From the NCBI RefSeq assembly GCF_963667135.1, contig NZ_OY762974.1, positions 496,001 to 560,000 of the forward strand: a DNA stretch of 64,000 bases. The letters are read 5' to 3'. Below the pieces are notes generated by a model. The model searched no databases, was not told the DNA's origin, and saw only the letters and a program-made list of their open reading frames with translations. The position numbers and the translations under genes are program-made. Positions 51,925 to 59,130 of the stretch are shown here, one piece after another; the first letter of the stretch is position 1, and every line of letters starts with the position of its first letter. This stretch comes from an uncultured Macellibacteroides sp. (GTDB lineage Bacteria > Bacteroidota > Bacteroidia > Bacteroidales > Tannerellaceae).

Positions 51925-53541
51925 TTAATAGCCTGGATTTTGTGTCAATGCAGGATTCAAGTCAATTTCTGTCTGAGGAACCGGGTACAGATAATTGTGA
52001 TCTTCGTACGAACTTCCTGTAAGACTAACATTGGTACCTTCGTAAAGTGTACAACTCAAACCATCTGAAGACAATGTATATTTTAACCCTTGGAATGGAG
52101 CATTCAATACTTGCTTAGCGATACCCCAACGACGGATATCCCACTGACGTTTTCCGCCTTCCATTGCAAATTCGACGCGCCACTCGTTACGAATACGTTG
52201 ACGCAAAGCATCTTGTGTTCCGCAATAAGTAGGGAGAGCACTGTTCGTTTTCTGCAACGCAGGAAGACCTGCACGCTTACGAACTCGATTTACAGCTTCG
52301 AAAGCACTGTCGTCAAGCGGAGAAAGTTCATTCTTTGCTTCAGCATAAGTCAACAGTACTTCGGCAAAACGAATTACATGCCAGTCCTTACCCATATCCC
52401 ATCCGTCAGATTGAGGATCGATACTTGGGTCGAGCCATTTCTGATCATAATAACCAGTTGCTGTTGCATCACCATGCTGACCAATACCTGTACTACCGCT
52501 GGATTTCAAAGGTGCAACTTTAATAGTTATACCATACATCACTTCGCCATCGTGCAATACGCAAGCTTCGAGACGAGGGTCACGGTTTTGGAACGGATTC
52601 TTTTCATTATATAATGGAGATGCACTGATAGGAGCGCCATCCACACATTCGAATGCGTCGACAAGACTTTGAGTAGGATTGATACCTCCCCATCCCTTTG
52701 TTGGGAAACAGCCCCATCCGATAATATAATTACTGTTGTCCTTTGGTTTGAACTGACGAATTAATACAGCTTCGCTGCAAGCTTCCTGGCTTTCCCAAAA
52801 CAATTCGGCATATCTGCCTGTACCTTCGGCATCAAACAATTCATATTGGCCTAAATCCATCACAGCCTTCGAAGAAGCAGCTGCCACATCAAAGTTTCCA
52901 TAATAAAGCGCAGCTCTTGCCTTCATGGCCATAGCAGCCCCCTTTGTTATTCTGCCGTAACTATCATCAGACCATGTTTGAGGTAGTTTACTGATAGCAA
53001 AATCAAAGTCTTGCATGATTTTGGCATATACTTCGGCACGGGGAGTACGTGTAATACCTTCCATCTCATCCAATGCCAAGGCTTTGTCAATATAGGGAAC
53101 ATCTCCAAATGTCTGAATTAAACCAAAGTATACATATCCGCGCAAGAAACGAGCTTCCCCAATAGTAGCATCTTTATCTGCAGCAGGATAATCTTCTATC
53201 ATTTCAATTTTCTCGAGAAGCACATTACATGCCCGTATTGAAGCGTAACTTGAAGCCCATTCGGTGTCTGCAGCATCGTAAATACCTTTCGAAGCATTTC
53301 CTGCAGCCCACTTGATACCATGTACCGCATTATCGGAATTAATATCGCCATCAATATCACCTGCATCACCGCCGGGTAGTGCTTTGTAAATATTGGCTAC
53401 AAACATTTCGGCATCCTTAGGAGTCTTCCAGAAACTTGCATCAGACAGTTCTTCCTGCGGATATTTATCAAGGAAATCGCTACAAGAGCTAAATCCCATC
53501 ATAACAGCAAATAAAGCTATATATAAAATATTCTTTTTCAT
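51925..53541 (-). CDS. SusD/RagB-family glycan-binding lipoprotein
   Basis: This 538-residue surface lipoprotein has a signal ending FSSC (Cys20), followed by SDFLDKYPQEELSDASFWKTPKDAEMFV, a standard SusD opening. The TPR-like scaffold and the C-terminal signature RNEWRVEFAMEGGKRQWDIRRWG are present, ending YLYPVPQTEIDLNPALTQNPGY. SusD caps the SusC barrel and delivers glycan to it. The gene follows susC by 18 bases. The longer frame begins at TTG 53547; the ATG at 53541 is used here. The ligand is not predictable. Confidence 0.96.
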   Translation of the reverse strand: MKKNILYIALFAVMMGFSSCSDFLDKYPQEELSDASFWKTPKDAEMFVANIYKALPGGDAGDIDGDINSDNAVHGIKWAAGNASKGIYDAADTEWASSYASIRACNVLLEKIEMIEDYPAADKDATIGEARFLRGYVYFGLIQTFGDVPYIDKALALDEMEGITRTPRAEVYAKIMQDFDFAISKLPQTWSDDSYGRITKGAAMAMKARAALYYGNFDVAAASSKAVMDLGQYELFDAEGTGRYAELFWESQEACSEAVLIRQFKPKDNSNYIIGWGCFPTKGWGGINPTQSLVDAFECVDGAPISASPLYNEKNPFQNRDPRLEACVLHDGEVMYGITIKVAPLKSSGSTGIGQHGDATATGYYDQKWLDPSIDPQSDGWDMGKDWHVIRFAEVLLTYAEAKNELSPLDDSAFEAVNRVRKRAGLPALQKTNSALPTYCGTQDALRQRIRNEWRVEFAMEGGKRQWDIRRWGIAKQVLNAPFQGLKYTLSSDGLSCTLYEGTNVSLTGSSYEDHNYLYPVPQTEIDLNPALTQNPGY

Positions 53542-53559
53542 ATTCAATTATTCAATTGT

Positions 53560-56500
53560 TTAAAATGAAACTTTTAAGCCTAAAGAAACCTTCTTGACAT
53601 TTGAGTAGAAAGCTCCACGGTTTGAAGCAGGAGCTTCGGGGTCAATTCCGTCAAGTCCTGAAAATGTAAGCAAGTTCTCGCCAGATACGTATACTTTCAC
53701 CCTATCAATATTCAGCTTGCCAAGAATTGATTTAGGTAAATTATATCCGAATGAGACATTCTTTAAACGCACATAAGAAGCATCCTGCAACCAGAAAGAA
53801 GAAGTCTGGAAGTTGATCTGCGAATCCTTTGTGATACGAGGATAAGAAGCATCAAGATTAGTTGGAGTCCAACGATCGAGATGACGTTCCAAAACTTTAC
53901 CACTGTTAAAGAATGAAAAGGCAGCTTCCTCAGAGTAATAACCCTGTACATCAAATGCTCCCTGGAAAAACAATGACAAATCGAAATCTTTATAGAAGAT
54001 ATTCGCATTAAATCCGGCAGTCCACGATGGAAAGTCATGTCCAATTACCTTACGGTCGTTTGCCGCATCTATTTTTCCATCCTTATTTAAGTCGGCATAT
54101 TTGATATCTCCCAATTTCTCTTTACCTGTACGTTTTGGCTGATTTGCTAGTTCGTCGGCTGTATTAAAGAAACCAATTGCTTCATATCCATAAAACGAAC
54201 CGGTTGGGTAACCTTCAAGGTACCAATATTTGCCATTATCAGGATTAGGACCTTCTGTTCCACGCATATCGGTAATTTCATTTTTAACATAAGCCAAATT
54301 GAAATTCAATGCATAACTTAGATCTTTATTAATACGGTTGTTGTGAAAAACACTTAAGTCGAATCCTGTATTTTCAACACTACCAGCATTCTGTGCAGGA
54401 CCATCCATACCTAATACTCCCTGAACCGGAAGATACAGAAGCATGTCGTTCGTGATCTTTTTGTAAGCAGCAAGTTCGAATCCAATCTTGTTGTCAAGGA
54501 ATCCGGTTTCTAAAGCTACTTCATAATTTGTTACTGTTGCCCATTTAAGCAAACTATTTACATAACGGGATTCTTTAGCAGTAGAATATAAGGTATTCCC
54601 ATACATGTAAGTATCATAGGCATAAGTCGAGATGGAGGGGTAGATGTCATTGGAATCCAATTCCTCATTACCCGTTTGACCCCATCCTAAGCGTAACTTC
54701 AGATTACTAATCCATGTTAGATCAGATTCTTTCAAGAAATTTTCTTCTGTAATTCTCCATCCGGCAGAGAATGCGGGGAAGAAACCCCAACGGTTGCCTT
54801 TTGGGAAACGAGAAGATGCATCTGCACGGAAATTAGCTTCAAATAAATATTTGTTACTAAAATCATATTGAGCACGACCAAAATAAGACTGACGAGCTGT
54901 TTCATGTCCACCATCTTTATTTGTCTGAGACGATTTATCCAATGTATTCAACGACTCTGTTAAATCATCATTACCACCACCTTTACGGGTAGCTTCCAAA
55001 TATTTGTATTTATAATCAACCTGTTCGAATCCGCCCAACAATCCCACTGAATGCGAGCCAAATGTCTTGTTGTAGTTTACCAATAACTGAGTGGTATACC
55101 AGTTCCAATCATAATTCTTAGCATAACCTTCGCGATCGCCCGAGTTATAAATATTAGATCCTGAACCATATGTCAGATGCTTTTTGAAACCATCTGAATT
55201 TTTCATATCATTGCGAACAGAGAATACTCCCTTCACACTTAATTCAGGAAGAATTTTTACAGTTGCCTGAAAAATAGCATTTAATTGCTGATTTGTATTT
55301 CTGGAAAATCCTGTTGTACCTAAGTGAGCCACAGGATTTTGAAGACCAATATAAGTATAATCACCCTGCTCTGTATAGACTGGTACTGTTGGTTTTAAAC
55401 GATTAGCATACTGCAACAAAGAAGCAAGACCTTCATAAGCATTATTCTCTACACCTCTGTAGCCAGAGATATTCAAACCGGCAGATAGCCAATTGGTTAC
55501 TTCCGACTCAATATTTGTACGAATATTATATCGTTGGTACTTATTTTGTTCAATAAAACCATTCTGTTGCGTATAACCAATAGATGCATTATAGCTTGTT
55601 TTTTCAGTACCACCGCTAAGAGACAAGTGGTGCATTTGCTCCATAGCTGTTGATTTGAATGTTTCATCATACCAATCAGTATTTGGATGTCCAATAGGAT
55701 CTGTTCCATTTCTGAAAAGCTCTATGTCTTCGGCGGTGTAAGGAACTACCGCTTTGGGATTTTCATTTAGCACAGCTTCATTATACAACGTTGCATAATC
55801 GGCCGATCCTAAAAATTTAAGTTTGGCTGTTGGAGTTGTCCATGCAATAGTTCCAGAATAACTGATTTTCGCGGCATCTCCCTTTTTACCTTTCTTAGTT
55901 GTAATAAGAATTACACCGTTGGCAGCCTGCACACCATAGATGGCTGCCGAAGAAGCATCTTTAAGAACGGTAAGGGTTGCAATATCGGAAGGATCTAGTG
56001 TGTTCATGTTTCCAGGTACTCCATCAACAATAACCAATGGGCTGGCAGCATTAATAGAATTCTTACCACGAATAGTGATAGATCCTGTTTGAGCTCCCGG
56101 TGCTCCTGAAGACTGAATAGCTGTTACACCAGGCATCTGTCCAGCTAACGCAGCAGAAACACTGGATACAGAACGAGATTCCAGTGCTTCAGCATTTAAA
56201 GAAGCAACTGATCCTGTTACGTTCGCCTTTTTCTGAACTCCATAACCTACAACCACAACTTCGTCTAAAGTCTTTGAATCTTCTTTCAAAAAGATCTTAG
56301 CCCCTTTAACCTGAGAAGCGACCATTTCCAAGGGCATGTAACCGATGTAGCTAATCAAGATTATATCGTTGTGAGAAGATACAGGCAATGTAAATTTACC
56401 ATCTATATCGGTTATTGTTCCGTTGGTAGTTCCTTTTACAACTACATTGGCTCCAATAATTGGTTCATTTAAATTCTGATCCATTACAACACCTGAAACT

Positions 56501-56898
56501 GTTTGTTGCTGTTGCTGAATGGCTGCCGATTTATTACTTAAAATAATCTGCTTGTCTTCCACTTTATATTGAACATTCGTATTATTAAATACTTCTTTCA
56601 ATACATTTTCAATCGTTTTTTCTTTAGCGTTAACGTCGACTTTTCTGTCTACGTTAATTAATTTACTGTTATACAGAAAATAGAAGTCAGAGTTTTCTTC
56701 AATTGCATTAAGCACTTGTTCGACAGTGGCATTATTTAAATTCAAAGAAATTTTAGTCGACTGAGAGTAAGATACCTCAGCGTTTGCCTGAAATAGAAAA
56801 ATAAATAACAATACAGCTGTTATTCTCATCGCCATCGGAATTTTAAGCAATAAGTCTAAATAAGACTTAAAACTTTTGTTGGTAATAAAATTATTCAT
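53560..56898 (-). CDS. SusC/RagA-family TonB-dependent transporter with STN domain
   Basis: This 1112-residue outer-membrane importer has a signal/anchor (about 20-42), then a secretin/TonB short N-terminal (STN) domain (about 47-121), a carboxypeptidase-regulatory-like domain (about 136-215), a TonB box region (LDEVVVVGYGVQKKANVTGSV), a plug (about 225-345) and a 22-strand barrel ending LGLKVSF. The STN domain contacts a FecR anti-sigma factor, and exactly such a gene lies upstream. Binding of the glycan would thus release the ECF sigma factor. Its leader (56899-57191) is overlapped by a predicted antisense RNA. Confidence 0.97.
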   Translation of the reverse strand: MNNFITNKSFKSYLDLLLKIPMAMRITAVLLFIFLFQANAEVSYSQSTKISLNLNNATVEQVLNAIEENSDFYFLYNSKLINVDRKVDVNAKEKTIENVLKEVFNNTNVQYKVEDKQIILSNKSAAIQQQQQTVSGVVMDQNLNEPIIGANVVVKGTTNGTITDIDGKFTLPVSSHNDIILISYIGYMPLEMVASQVKGAKIFLKEDSKTLDEVVVVGYGVQKKANVTGSVASLNAEALESRSVSSVSAALAGQMPGVTAIQSSGAPGAQTGSITIRGKNSINAASPLVIVDGVPGNMNTLDPSDIATLTVLKDASSAAIYGVQAANGVILITTKKGKKGDAAKISYSGTIAWTTPTAKLKFLGSADYATLYNEAVLNENPKAVVPYTAEDIELFRNGTDPIGHPNTDWYDETFKSTAMEQMHHLSLSGGTEKTSYNASIGYTQQNGFIEQNKYQRYNIRTNIESEVTNWLSAGLNISGYRGVENNAYEGLASLLQYANRLKPTVPVYTEQGDYTYIGLQNPVAHLGTTGFSRNTNQQLNAIFQATVKILPELSVKGVFSVRNDMKNSDGFKKHLTYGSGSNIYNSGDREGYAKNYDWNWYTTQLLVNYNKTFGSHSVGLLGGFEQVDYKYKYLEATRKGGGNDDLTESLNTLDKSSQTNKDGGHETARQSYFGRAQYDFSNKYLFEANFRADASSRFPKGNRWGFFPAFSAGWRITEENFLKESDLTWISNLKLRLGWGQTGNEELDSNDIYPSISTYAYDTYMYGNTLYSTAKESRYVNSLLKWATVTNYEVALETGFLDNKIGFELAAYKKITNDMLLYLPVQGVLGMDGPAQNAGSVENTGFDLSVFHNNRINKDLSYALNFNLAYVKNEITDMRGTEGPNPDNGKYWYLEGYPTGSFYGYEAIGFFNTADELANQPKRTGKEKLGDIKYADLNKDGKIDAANDRKVIGHDFPSWTAGFNANIFYKDFDLSLFFQGAFDVQGYYSEEAAFSFFNSGKVLERHLDRWTPTNLDASYPRITKDSQINFQTSSFWLQDASYVRLKNVSFGYNLPKSILGKLNIDRVKVYVSGENLLTFSGLDGIDPEAPASNRGAFYSNVKKVSLGLKVSF

Positions 56899-56920
56899 AA
56901 ATTCATGCGTCTTTTTAAAT

Positions 56921-56928
56921 TAGGTTTG
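56921..56928 (+). promoter_or_regulatory. -7 element for the predicted antisense RNA
   Basis: TAGGTTTG is an exact TAnnTTTG box on the plus strand, only 23 bases from the susC start codon and pointing away from susC. It would start transcription near 56935. No TTTG box is found at the ideal -33 distance, which lies in the first codons of susC. Confidence 0.5.
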
Positions 56929-56934
56929 TCAAAT

Positions 56935-57037
56935 AACTTAATTGAGTTTTGCCGTTCGTCAGGTGAGATTTTCGTAACGGCATTGAATTAGATCTTACGG
57001 GGGAGTAGTAACTAGCTGCTTTCCCGTTTGTTTTTTT
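56935..57037 (+). ncRNA. Predicted antisense small RNA over the susC leader (DonS-like)
   Basis: On the strand opposite to susC, a -7 box is followed by a hairpin (TGCCGTT 56950-56956 with AACGGCA 56976-56982). An intrinsic terminator comes next: 12 paired positions, 56997-57008 with 57016-57027, including three G-U pairs that form only in plus-strand RNA, then TTGTTTTTTT. Together they define an RNA of about 100 nt complementary to the susC 5' leader. Cis-antisense RNAs of this size and position (DonS in B. fragilis and relatives) repress sigma/anti-sigma-controlled PULs. No plus-strand protein gene exists here that would need this terminator. Ends are estimates. Confidence 0.6.
56997..57037 (+). 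terminator. Intrinsic terminator of the antisense RNA
   Basis: The stem is ACGGGGGAGTAG / CTGCTTTCCCGT with a 7-base loop (TAACTAG), followed on the plus strand by TTGTTTTTTT. The G-U pairs would be C-A mismatches on the minus strand, so the orientation is plus. Confidence 0.7.
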
Positions 57038-57191
57038 ACTTTTTACGTTCCTTTCTTCATTGCATTAGTTTTTTTCATTAACAAATAGATTTATTAAACA
57101 CGATTTTTATTACTATTTTTAACACAAACAATAGACGAAGAAGGCATTGGCATACCCTACAATAAAATATAAAATTAACATAAATTTGCTT

Positions 57192-58214
57192 TTATTTGTA
57201 TTCCCGTATAATTACGCGGCGTTGTGCGTATGTGAAATCTGCCTTCTTTTCTGATTCTAAAATCTGACAACGTATAGGAGCTGACTTTTCAAGTAAACGA
57301 AGAACTTCTGGTAAAGTTTCCGTTGTGAAAGTGGCAGAATATTCATATTCGTGTAAAGTTTTACCTTGCAACTCGATAGAAACATTGAAATGACGAGACA
57401 GTTTCCTAACGATTTCATCAAAACCAGCCCTTCTGAATACCATTTTTCCTTCTCTCCAGGCTGTTTTTGTATATATGTTAGCCTCCGAAATAGCAATATC
57501 ACGGGTTGTTTTATTTAAGACAGCTTGTTCTCCGGCCTTTAATGAAAACACATTCTCTGTATCGTATTTTTTTACGTCGATATTTCCTTTGGCAAGAATG
57601 GCCTCAATCTTATTGTCGTCATTATAAGCAGAAACATTAAACTCAGTCCCATAAGCACTCACAGTCATACCGTTGGGCACAATCACATCAAAACGGTTTG
57701 TTTTATCGGATGTAACTTTAAAATAAGCCTCTCCTTCTAATTTAACCGTACGATATTTCCCTGTAAATCTTTCCGGATAGGTAATTTTAGTTCCTGAGTT
57801 TAGCCAAACCTCCGAACCGTCAGGAAGAATTACTTTAGATACTAATCCATAAGCTGTTTGTAATTCAACCTGCTCGATGGGACTTTCTTCTTTAGGATTA
57901 GAATCATTCATAAAATATAGGGTTACCAGAAATAAAGGCAAAATAAGAATAGCTGCAGCATTACGGGAAACATCCCAAAGCTTTTGCCGGAAAGAGAGAA
58001 ACCTCATTCTCTTTGCAATCTTATTCCAATGAGCATTGGTGTCTACCAAGCGTTGCTTCTTCAAATTCTCAGTAGCATTCCAAATAAATTGTATTTCTTT
58101 AATCTCCTTTCTGAACTCGGGAGAACTTTCAGCCAATTGCTCAAATGCAGCGATCTGCCCGGCAGGTAGTGATCCTTCAAGGTAAGGTATAATATGATCT
58201 TTCGTTATTTCCAA
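57192..58214 (-). CDS. FecR-family anti-sigma factor
   Basis: This 340-residue inner-membrane regulator has a cytoplasmic N-terminal sigma-binding region, a single helix (about 86-103), a periplasmic FecR domain (about 125-220, with VILPDGSEVWLNSGTKITYPERF and GEAYFKVTSD) and a C-terminal DUF4974 domain (about 255-325, FDEIVRKLSRHFNVSIEL). It holds the ECF sigma factor until the STN domain of SusC signals. The start codon is TTG (58214): no ATG or GTG lies upstream before an in-frame stop, and the next methionine is at residue 69, too late for the N-terminal domain. It follows the sigma gene by 95 bases. Confidence 0.93.
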   Translation of the reverse strand: MEITKDHIIPYLEGSLPAGQIAAFEQLAESSPEFRKEIKEIQFIWNATENLKKQRLVDTNAHWNKIAKRMRFLSFRQKLWDVSRNAAAILILPLFLVTLYFMNDSNPKEESPIEQVELQTAYGLVSKVILPDGSEVWLNSGTKITYPERFTGKYRTVKLEGEAYFKVTSDKTNRFDVIVPNGMTVSAYGTEFNVSAYNDDNKIEAILAKGNIDVKKYDTENVFSLKAGEQAVLNKTTRDIAISEANIYTKTAWREGKMVFRRAGFDEIVRKLSRHFNVSIELQGKTLHEYEYSATFTTETLPEVLRLLEKSAPIRCQILESEKKADFTYAQRRVIIREYK

Positions 58215-58254
58215 AGTGTGTTTCTTTTTAAATATATGATTTGACGAAAAGAGG

Positions 58255-58269
58255 ATAGGGTTACCCTAT
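58255..58269. promoter_or_regulatory. Short palindrome between sigma and anti-sigma genes
   Basis: ATAGGGT and ACCCTAT flank a single T, giving 7-base arms, about 40 bases upstream of the fecR-like start. It could be a binding site or a small hairpin; no function is assigned. Confidence 0.25.
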
Positions 58270-58309: not shown

Positions 58310-58888
58310 TTACCAACAAAACAGTAAAATCAGCGGTAAATAGTCTTTAAGCTCAGTGCGCATCATTTTTAAGGACTTACTCATATATGCTTCTACTGTC
58401 TTTACGGATATATTCTGCTTCTCTGCAATCTGTGCGTACGTTAAACCGTCAAAGCGATTCATTTCAAAAACTTGTCGAAGATTCTCAGGAAGTTGAGAAA
58501 GGGCGCGAGAAATGATTTCTTCCAGTTCCATCGTTGAATAAACATCATCCTGATACATAAGCCAGTCTTTCTTTGCCTGGCGTTCAATATATGTGTGTTC
58601 AACTTCTTTTTTTCGCAGATAATCTATACAGCTGTTTTTAACCGTGGTGACTAATAGATTCCGAGCTGAAGAGGTAATTTCGAGCGATTTTCTTGTGCGC
58701 CATATTTTAAAAAATGTATCCTGAACAATATCTTCGCATTCTTCTTTATTGTCAATATATCTTCCGGCAAACACACACAATGAAGGGAAAAAGTTATAAA
58801 AAAGAGAACAGAAAGCCTTCTCGTCATCTTTTGTGACAATTCTCCAAAAAAGATTATCGATAGATAATTGATTGGCAAGATCAGTCAT
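58310..58888 (-). CDS. ECF-type RNA polymerase sigma factor
   Basis: This 192-residue ECF sigma factor has region 2 at about 25-95 (FYNFFPSLCVFAGRYI, EDIVQDTFFKIWRTR) for core and -10 binding and region 4 at about 128-182 (LSQLPENLRQVFEMNRFDGLTYAQIAEKQNISVKTVEAYMSKSL) for -35 binding. It belongs to the Bacteroidetes group that pairs with FecR and a SusC carrying an STN domain. It is predicted to drive the downstream susC-susD operon when the cognate glycan is present. Confidence 0.95.
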   Translation of the reverse strand: MTDLANQLSIDNLFWRIVTKDDEKAFCSLFYNFFPSLCVFAGRYIDNKEECEDIVQDTFFKIWRTRKSLEITSSARNLLVTTVKNSCIDYLRKKEVEHTYIERQAKKDWLMYQDDVYSTMELEEIISRALSQLPENLRQVFEMNRFDGLTYAQIAEKQNISVKTVEAYMSKSLKMMRTELKDYLPLILLFCW

Positions 58889-59054: not shown

Positions 59055-59100
59055 ATAAAAAAACGTGCATAGTTGATTAATTACAATCAACTATGCACGT
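59055..59100 (-). terminator. Terminator of the gmd-fcl operon
   Basis: ACGTGCATAGTTGATT (59063-59078) and AATCAACTATGCACGT (59085-59100) form a perfect 16-pair stem with a 6-base loop. On the minus strand it is followed by seven T (59062-59056 region), 30 bases after the fcl stop. Confidence 0.85.
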
Positions 59101-59130
59101 TATATTAAAAGTTCTGTAAAGGGAGTTACA

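Follow-up and report, generated by a model that had tools for sequence, protein, structure and literature searches.

DonS-type systems are characterized by a susC gene under the control of an ECF sigma factor and its anti-sigma factor, and CopA and CopT of plasmid R1 constitute an antisense pair that interacts loop to loop. In the parts of the two reports considered here, DonS is described as a member of a family of cis-antisense RNAs, 78-128 nt long and encoded divergently to susC homologs, of which first ten and then 32 were found in B. thetaiotaomicron, some of them validated by Northern blotting (PMC7366714, PMC10994844). In B. thetaiotaomicron, negative as well as positive correlations between such RNAs and their PUL are described in the pertinent part of one of these reports (PMC10994844), and the corresponding part of another report gives 15 PULs with such antisense RNAs in B. 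fragilis (PMC9723704). Small RNAs named FopS repress susC-like mRNAs in B. thetaiotaomicron; the excerpt considered describes 14 copies, pairing via a single-stranded 5' seed, and one terminator hairpin (PMC11697453). Three other papers touch PUL antisense RNAs only in passing in the parts considered (PMC10861873, PMC12565237, PMC5635687). At the level of titles and abstracts, a conserved hairpin loop in PUL antisense RNAs was not found described in the literature, which is a weak negative.

Here we analysed a window, that is, the whole stretch of 64,000 nucleotides, in which a preliminary description had proposed an antisense RNA over the leader of a susC gene linked to ECF and FecR genes. 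This proposal is well supported by covariation, a terminator and the genomic context, and we regard the prediction of a terminated antisense RNA opposite the susC leader as strongly supported. The features are listed in Table 1.

Table 1. Positions of the predicted antisense unit and of the surrounding genes and promoter-like sites in the window.
Feature	Position	Strand	Basis
-7-like sigma-ABfr box TAGGTTTG of the antisense RNA	56921..56928	+	exact sequence
Predicted antisense RNA, ~103 nt	56935..57037	+	fold; conservation with context in relatives
33-nt covarying hairpin, 7 pairs (56950-56956 with 56976-56982)	56950..56982	+	covariation
Near-invariant loop GTCAGGTGAGATTTTCG, 17 bases	56958..56974	+	identity among 17 distinct orthologs
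Stem of the intrinsic terminator, favourable only on the plus strand owing to its G-U pairs	56997..57027	+	
T-run TTGTTTTTTT	57028..57037	+	sequence
susC-type TonB-dependent transporter with STN domain (opposed gene)	53560..56898	-	Pfam STN, CarbopepD_reg_2, Plug
susD-type lipoprotein	51925..53547	-	Pfam SusD_RagB
FecR-type anti-sigma factor	57192..58214	-	Pfam FecR, FecR_C
ECF sigma factor	58310..58888	-	Pfam Sigma70_r2, Sigma70_r4_2
Predicted ECF promoter of susC (AGGGTA...CGTC)	57134..57158	-	motif, function inferred
Matching predicted ECF promoter before fecR	58243..58267	-	motif

Genes and predicted antisense unit

Downstream of susC, the minus strand carries susD and the genes of a DUF6057 protein and a PD40 protein. 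The label PUL, which had been given to the locus, is tentative, as no glycoside hydrolase family was found among the ten neighbourhood proteins scanned. The motif AGGGT-N14-19-CGTC occurred at two sites only in the window, before fecR and before susC, with equal spacing, and we infer that both are ECF promoters. The predicted susC promoter would give a leader from about 57127 to 56899, which contains the whole antisense target. A looser form of the promoter was sought in the orthologs described below except L033, which lies at a contig edge. It stood at the beginning of fecR, some 1.2 kb upstream of the hairpin, in 18 of 19, and before susC, 140-181 nt upstream of the hairpin, in 9 of 19. The genome has a large ECF/FecR repertoire, with 35 FecR matches in 4.46 Mb. 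On the minus strand at 59062-59101, a strong 18-pair hairpin followed by a T-run was also observed; this is likely the terminator of the epimerase genes located upstream of the ECF gene.

The exact TAnnTTTG box described opposite susC was present. However, this motif occurred 68 times in the window versus 75 expected, which is the chance level, and hence the box alone proves nothing. A TTTG at -33 was not seen in the sequence, and the exact TAnnTTTG was found in 5 of 20 orthologs; TTA[AG]GTT was located 23-28 nt ahead of the 41-nt hairpin match in 13 of the 20. The start of the RNA was placed 7 nt past the box and its end at the terminator T-run. The predicted RNA would thus begin about 37 nt upstream of the susC ATG, a gap that makes direct blocking of the start codon unlikely. 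On the plus strand, the 103 nt had a folding energy of -32.7 kcal/mol (z -3.8), compared with -19.0 kcal/mol (z -2.6) on the minus strand. As regards the statement that the plus strand is non-coding, a 28-codon frame opens there at 56905, ahead of the expected RNA start, and its counterpart in the near relative L003 hits an early stop.

The 7-pair hairpin and the 12-pair terminator stem with three G-U pairs were recovered as they had been described. ViennaRNA gave 13 terminator pairs by adding a fourth G-U, with a folding energy of -19.0 kcal/mol (z -5.9) against only -7.4 for the reverse complement, so that the terminator is specific to the plus strand. In a 7-kb scan, terminator-like sites numbered 4 versus 4.3 expected; therefore, the mere presence of a terminator is not rare, and stability and conservation set this one apart. 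A lack of conservation of the stem and T-run upstream of orthologous susC genes had been named as grounds for rejecting the RNA. By the rule used here, the antisense terminator was kept in 18 of 20 orthologs, the exceptions being L033, whose 16-pair stem fails the T-run rule, and L037, which has no terminator. A strand-symmetric search of the terminator region of the 20 orthologs found 61 G-U cells versus 4 A-C cells, three of the latter in L037, which points to the antisense strand; the same test on 30 paralog gaps of the own genome gave 60 G-U versus 36 A-C. The hairpin itself, with 2 G-U versus 3 A-C, gives no strand signal.

Conservation and covariation of the hairpin

A blastn search with 401 bases gave matches in 12 of 99 genomes, the own genome included. 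Six of the matched loci were susC leaders (L003, L004, L005, L006, L007 and L014), and the other matches, 22-41 bases long, were set aside. A 41-nt hairpin-only model was built from the window and five of the six leaders, L014 being left out because of its different loop; two inner pairs of this model are slightly off the later consensus, on which the pair counts given below rest. In the own genome, the model found one strong site (E 5.6e-10), the next one having an E of 1.5. Among the genomes of the family, the model found the hairpin in 20 of 123 (E<=0.01), once per genome. All 20 matches, including the two weakest (E 0.007 and 0.009), were antisense and immediately upstream of a susC start, with fecR on the far side of the hairpin in 19; the remaining locus, L033, lies at a contig edge. 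Fourteen of the 20, one of which (G106) is of the same species, were absent from the model and were recovered by the hairpin alone.

With stricter filters (E<=0.001), the model matched the own genome and G366 only in an order sample of 393 genomes, and the own genome only in a phylum sample of 395. The G366 match (L040, other family, E 3.7e-4) was rejected as an ortholog and taken as a chance match, since neither susC nor fecR was near. No match up to E 1 was obtained at 80 named susC loci (80 of 597), including the one B. fragilis locus among them, which does not belong to the FecR-type loci. In Rfam 15, the antisense RNA had no match above the gathering score to any family, which would cover FopS if it is represented there, and a search up to E 10 returned one human lncRNA family only (E 9.7).

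Covariation was assessed with 18 gap-free hairpins, 17 of them distinct; L038 and L039, which differ in length, were left out. Pairing is possible in 91.5% of the cells of this alignment, and both sides vary in 7 of the 9 consensus pairs. Pairing, this count and the covariation score were each matched by 0 of 500 shuffles and the number of pair types was equalled by 14 of 500, where kinship can beat shuffles on some measures without any structure but rarely on the count of both-side changes. When the structure was shifted by 1-3 columns, every measure was lower. Among the 17 distinct orthologs, the mean pairwise identity was 0.93 in the loop versus 0.71 in the stem. Such conservation of the antisense unit in relatives excludes chance.

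Two loci deserve separate mention. L037 (G136), the sole ortholog lacking the terminator, differs in a loop base as well, and one position of its stem does not pair. L014 (G016) is a second fecR-susC junction in the genome that contains L026; a similar box, a hairpin of 33 nt and a terminator are present there, but the hairpin loop is quite unlike, as would be expected if paralogs had drifted apart in this part. The L014-type hairpin was rejected as a second conserved family: matches were obtained in 26 of 123 genomes at E<=0.01, and only that in the source genome covered the full query, those elsewhere being limited to about 20-45 bases that lie mainly in the 3' half of the query.

Antisense terminators at fecR-susC junctions

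Antisense terminators mark most fecR-susC junctions of the own genome. Among 33 own FecR matches with susC downstream, the gap held an antisense terminator in 24 cases and a sense one in none, whereas dinucleotide shuffles gave 5.8% (n=330). After one gap shorter than 60 nt had been dropped, the figures were 24/32 and 0/32; the controls gave 2 antisense and 1 sense of 32 upstream of fecR and 1 and 1 of 32 inside fecR. We also counted 79 of 80 named loci (80 of 597, possibly omitting the own genome), a set biased by having been chosen for likeness to this SusC. Here, 54 loci with FecR had 45 antisense and 8 sense gap terminators (controls: 7 and 6 of 52 upstream of fecR, 7 and 3 of 54 inside it), and susC genes without FecR had 6 and 1 of 25.

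An even sample gave 4 antisense and 1 sense terminators in 15 junctions; these came from 29 loci, with one own locus dropped and 14 loci in which susC was not found. A profile recount covered 83 loci with 69 junctions: a genome of the same order had 7 antisense and 2 sense of 16 (5 and 2 in the control upstream of fecR), other class members had 7/1 of 10, 6/0 of 6, 0/0 of 5 and 3/4 of 18, and other classes had 1 and 1 of 14. Accordingly, some lineages of the class commonly place an antisense terminator at the junction, and others do so rarely or not at all. Universality across the phylum, suggested by 45/54 of the named loci, was not borne out by the even samples, in which antisense terminators outside the family were far less frequent.

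Two further observations concern the own junctions. Sense 8-mers such as TGCCTATG and TGTTAACC (one mismatch allowed) were found in 17-18 of 32 own gaps (L041-L074), where about 1-4 were expected; most lie close to the fecR side, and they are possibly a common type of susC promoter. In 8 of 27 own junctions (L042, L043, L045, L048, L050, L058, L060 and L069), an exact TAnnTTTG is superimposed on the assigned start codon of susC (CAAAnnTATG), and some bases may therefore belong both to the -7 box of an antisense RNA and to the site where translation starts.

Proposed function and known systems

Taken together, these findings lead us to favour, with a probability of about 0.6, an antisense RNA of the DonS kind, encoded in cis, which would base-pair with the leader of susC and keep leaky expression low until susC transcription is raised by the ECF sigma factor. 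The computed basis consists of the hairpin, its loop, the predicted strand-specific terminator, and their conservation and position. From these we infer repression of susC by the RNA, and a repression that lasts until the sigma factor raises expression is plausible. A promoter of the sigma-ABfr type, located immediately upstream of the susC start codon, would yield an RNA of about 100 nt that runs away from susC via the 5' leader; its own terminator would stop it some 90 nt into the predicted sense transcript. The hairpin loop of this RNA would contact the complementary hairpin of the susC leader to form a duplex, and the leaky susC mRNA might thereby be destabilised, or its leader misfolded, while FecR holds the sigma factor. 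After a signal has released the sigma factor, strong transcription in the sense direction could out-titrate the antisense RNA and run over its promoter, which would give a sharp switch. Several findings speak against this explanation, namely the box at chance level with its exact form in 5 of 20 orthologs, the hairpin without a strand signal, the one ortholog lacking a terminator (L037), the far lower frequency of antisense terminators in the even samples outside the family, the mixed published PUL correlations, and the fact that cis-pairing has no need of an invariant loop.

Because cis-pairing does not require it, the invariant loop may have a further partner. As a tentative extension, the RNA could represent a new conserved RNA family within one bacterial family, in which a cis-antisense RNA has come to bind a second, common partner, be it an RNA-binding protein or a set of shared trans targets, via the invariant 17-base loop, gating its own ECF-driven susC and linking it to a wider uptake network; such an RNA would sit within a lineage habit of terminated antisense RNAs at fecR-susC junctions. 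That the RNA acts mainly in trans or binds a protein through this loop, the susC leader being one target or a mere birthplace, is rather unlikely. In its favour, the loop is 93% identical while the stem letters vary, where a purely cis-acting pair could drift freely, and a 15-base loop core with <=2 mismatches gave 79 matches in 8 genomes versus 30 for the reversed pattern. Nevertheless, all 20 genomes had a single model match, always at a susC of this kind, and the exact core occurred once, at the locus, in 7 of the 8 genomes, the eighth (G001) having one mismatch there. The further one-mismatch copy in G156 had no susC or fecR around it, and inspection by eye revealed no repeated second site among the near-copies in the 8 genomes. 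Eleven loci taken from near-copies and weak model matches were rejected as trans targets; they lacked susC, and one had a weak fecR match (L170).

It is improbable that the element works in the sense susC leader, through mRNA stability, translation or a uORF, with the antisense terminator limiting read-through or being incidental. The absence of a strand signal in the 33-nt hairpin alone is in keeping with this idea, as are a 22-codon sense uORF that spans the loop in the window and another frame, ending at the loop TGA, that has an upstream ATG in 12/20 orthologs. The terminator half, however, is strongly antisense-specific, by its 61:4 ratio, its T-run and the counts at the own junctions, and the terminator-less L037, albeit one case only, is altered in a loop base and in stem pairing as well. 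No frame has an ATG in all orthologs, since that of the window has one in 5/20 and the other is not open in this way in the window, and the loop letters are kept at all codon positions. A protein-coding uORF on the sense strand was thus rejected, its start and frame not being conserved across the 20 orthologs; the frame ending at the loop TGA may be a by-product of conserved hairpins. A five-codon minigene at the sense motif GCCTATG was also dropped because in several own copies the very next codon is a stop. Transcriptional interference, in which antisense transcription itself and not the RNA damps susC, is highly improbable, since it leaves the covarying hairpin with its invariant loop unaccounted for, even though the opposing predicted promoters are about 200 nt apart and the antisense unit ends before the predicted sense promoter, so that collision inside the leader would be possible.

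The analysis extends a single predicted antisense RNA to an RNA family that has evolutionary support and offers a defined loop for mutation, and the role of PUL-associated antisense RNAs becomes testable on a conserved example beyond the two model Bacteroides.

Compared with the FopS/GibS family, as far as the excerpt of the FopS report describes it, the present RNA has one match per genome, a cis-antisense position, an extra hairpin and no Rfam match. It resembles CopA/CopT in having a stem-loop able to start pairing with a complementary leader; its target would be the leader of a chromosomal transporter gene, and the likeness is one of form. The likeness to DonS, which had been proposed, holds for predicted size and place. 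As in DonS-like RNAs, the RNA is encoded opposite a susC homolog, close to the 5' end of that gene, and its predicted 103 nt, a box-to-terminator length read from the sequence, compare with the reported 78-128 nt. The ECF and FecR genes adjoin susC, and the promoter-like site common to fecR and susC is a predicted one. Repression is part of the known DonS system, whereas the RNA described here is known from sequence alone. The covarying hairpin with its invariant loop is kept across genera in the present case, and the parts of PMC7366714 and PMC10994844 considered contain no such statement for DonS (Cao 2016 lies outside this comparison). A PUL-linked antisense off-switch is thus a known kind of element, of which this conserved RNA looks like a new example.
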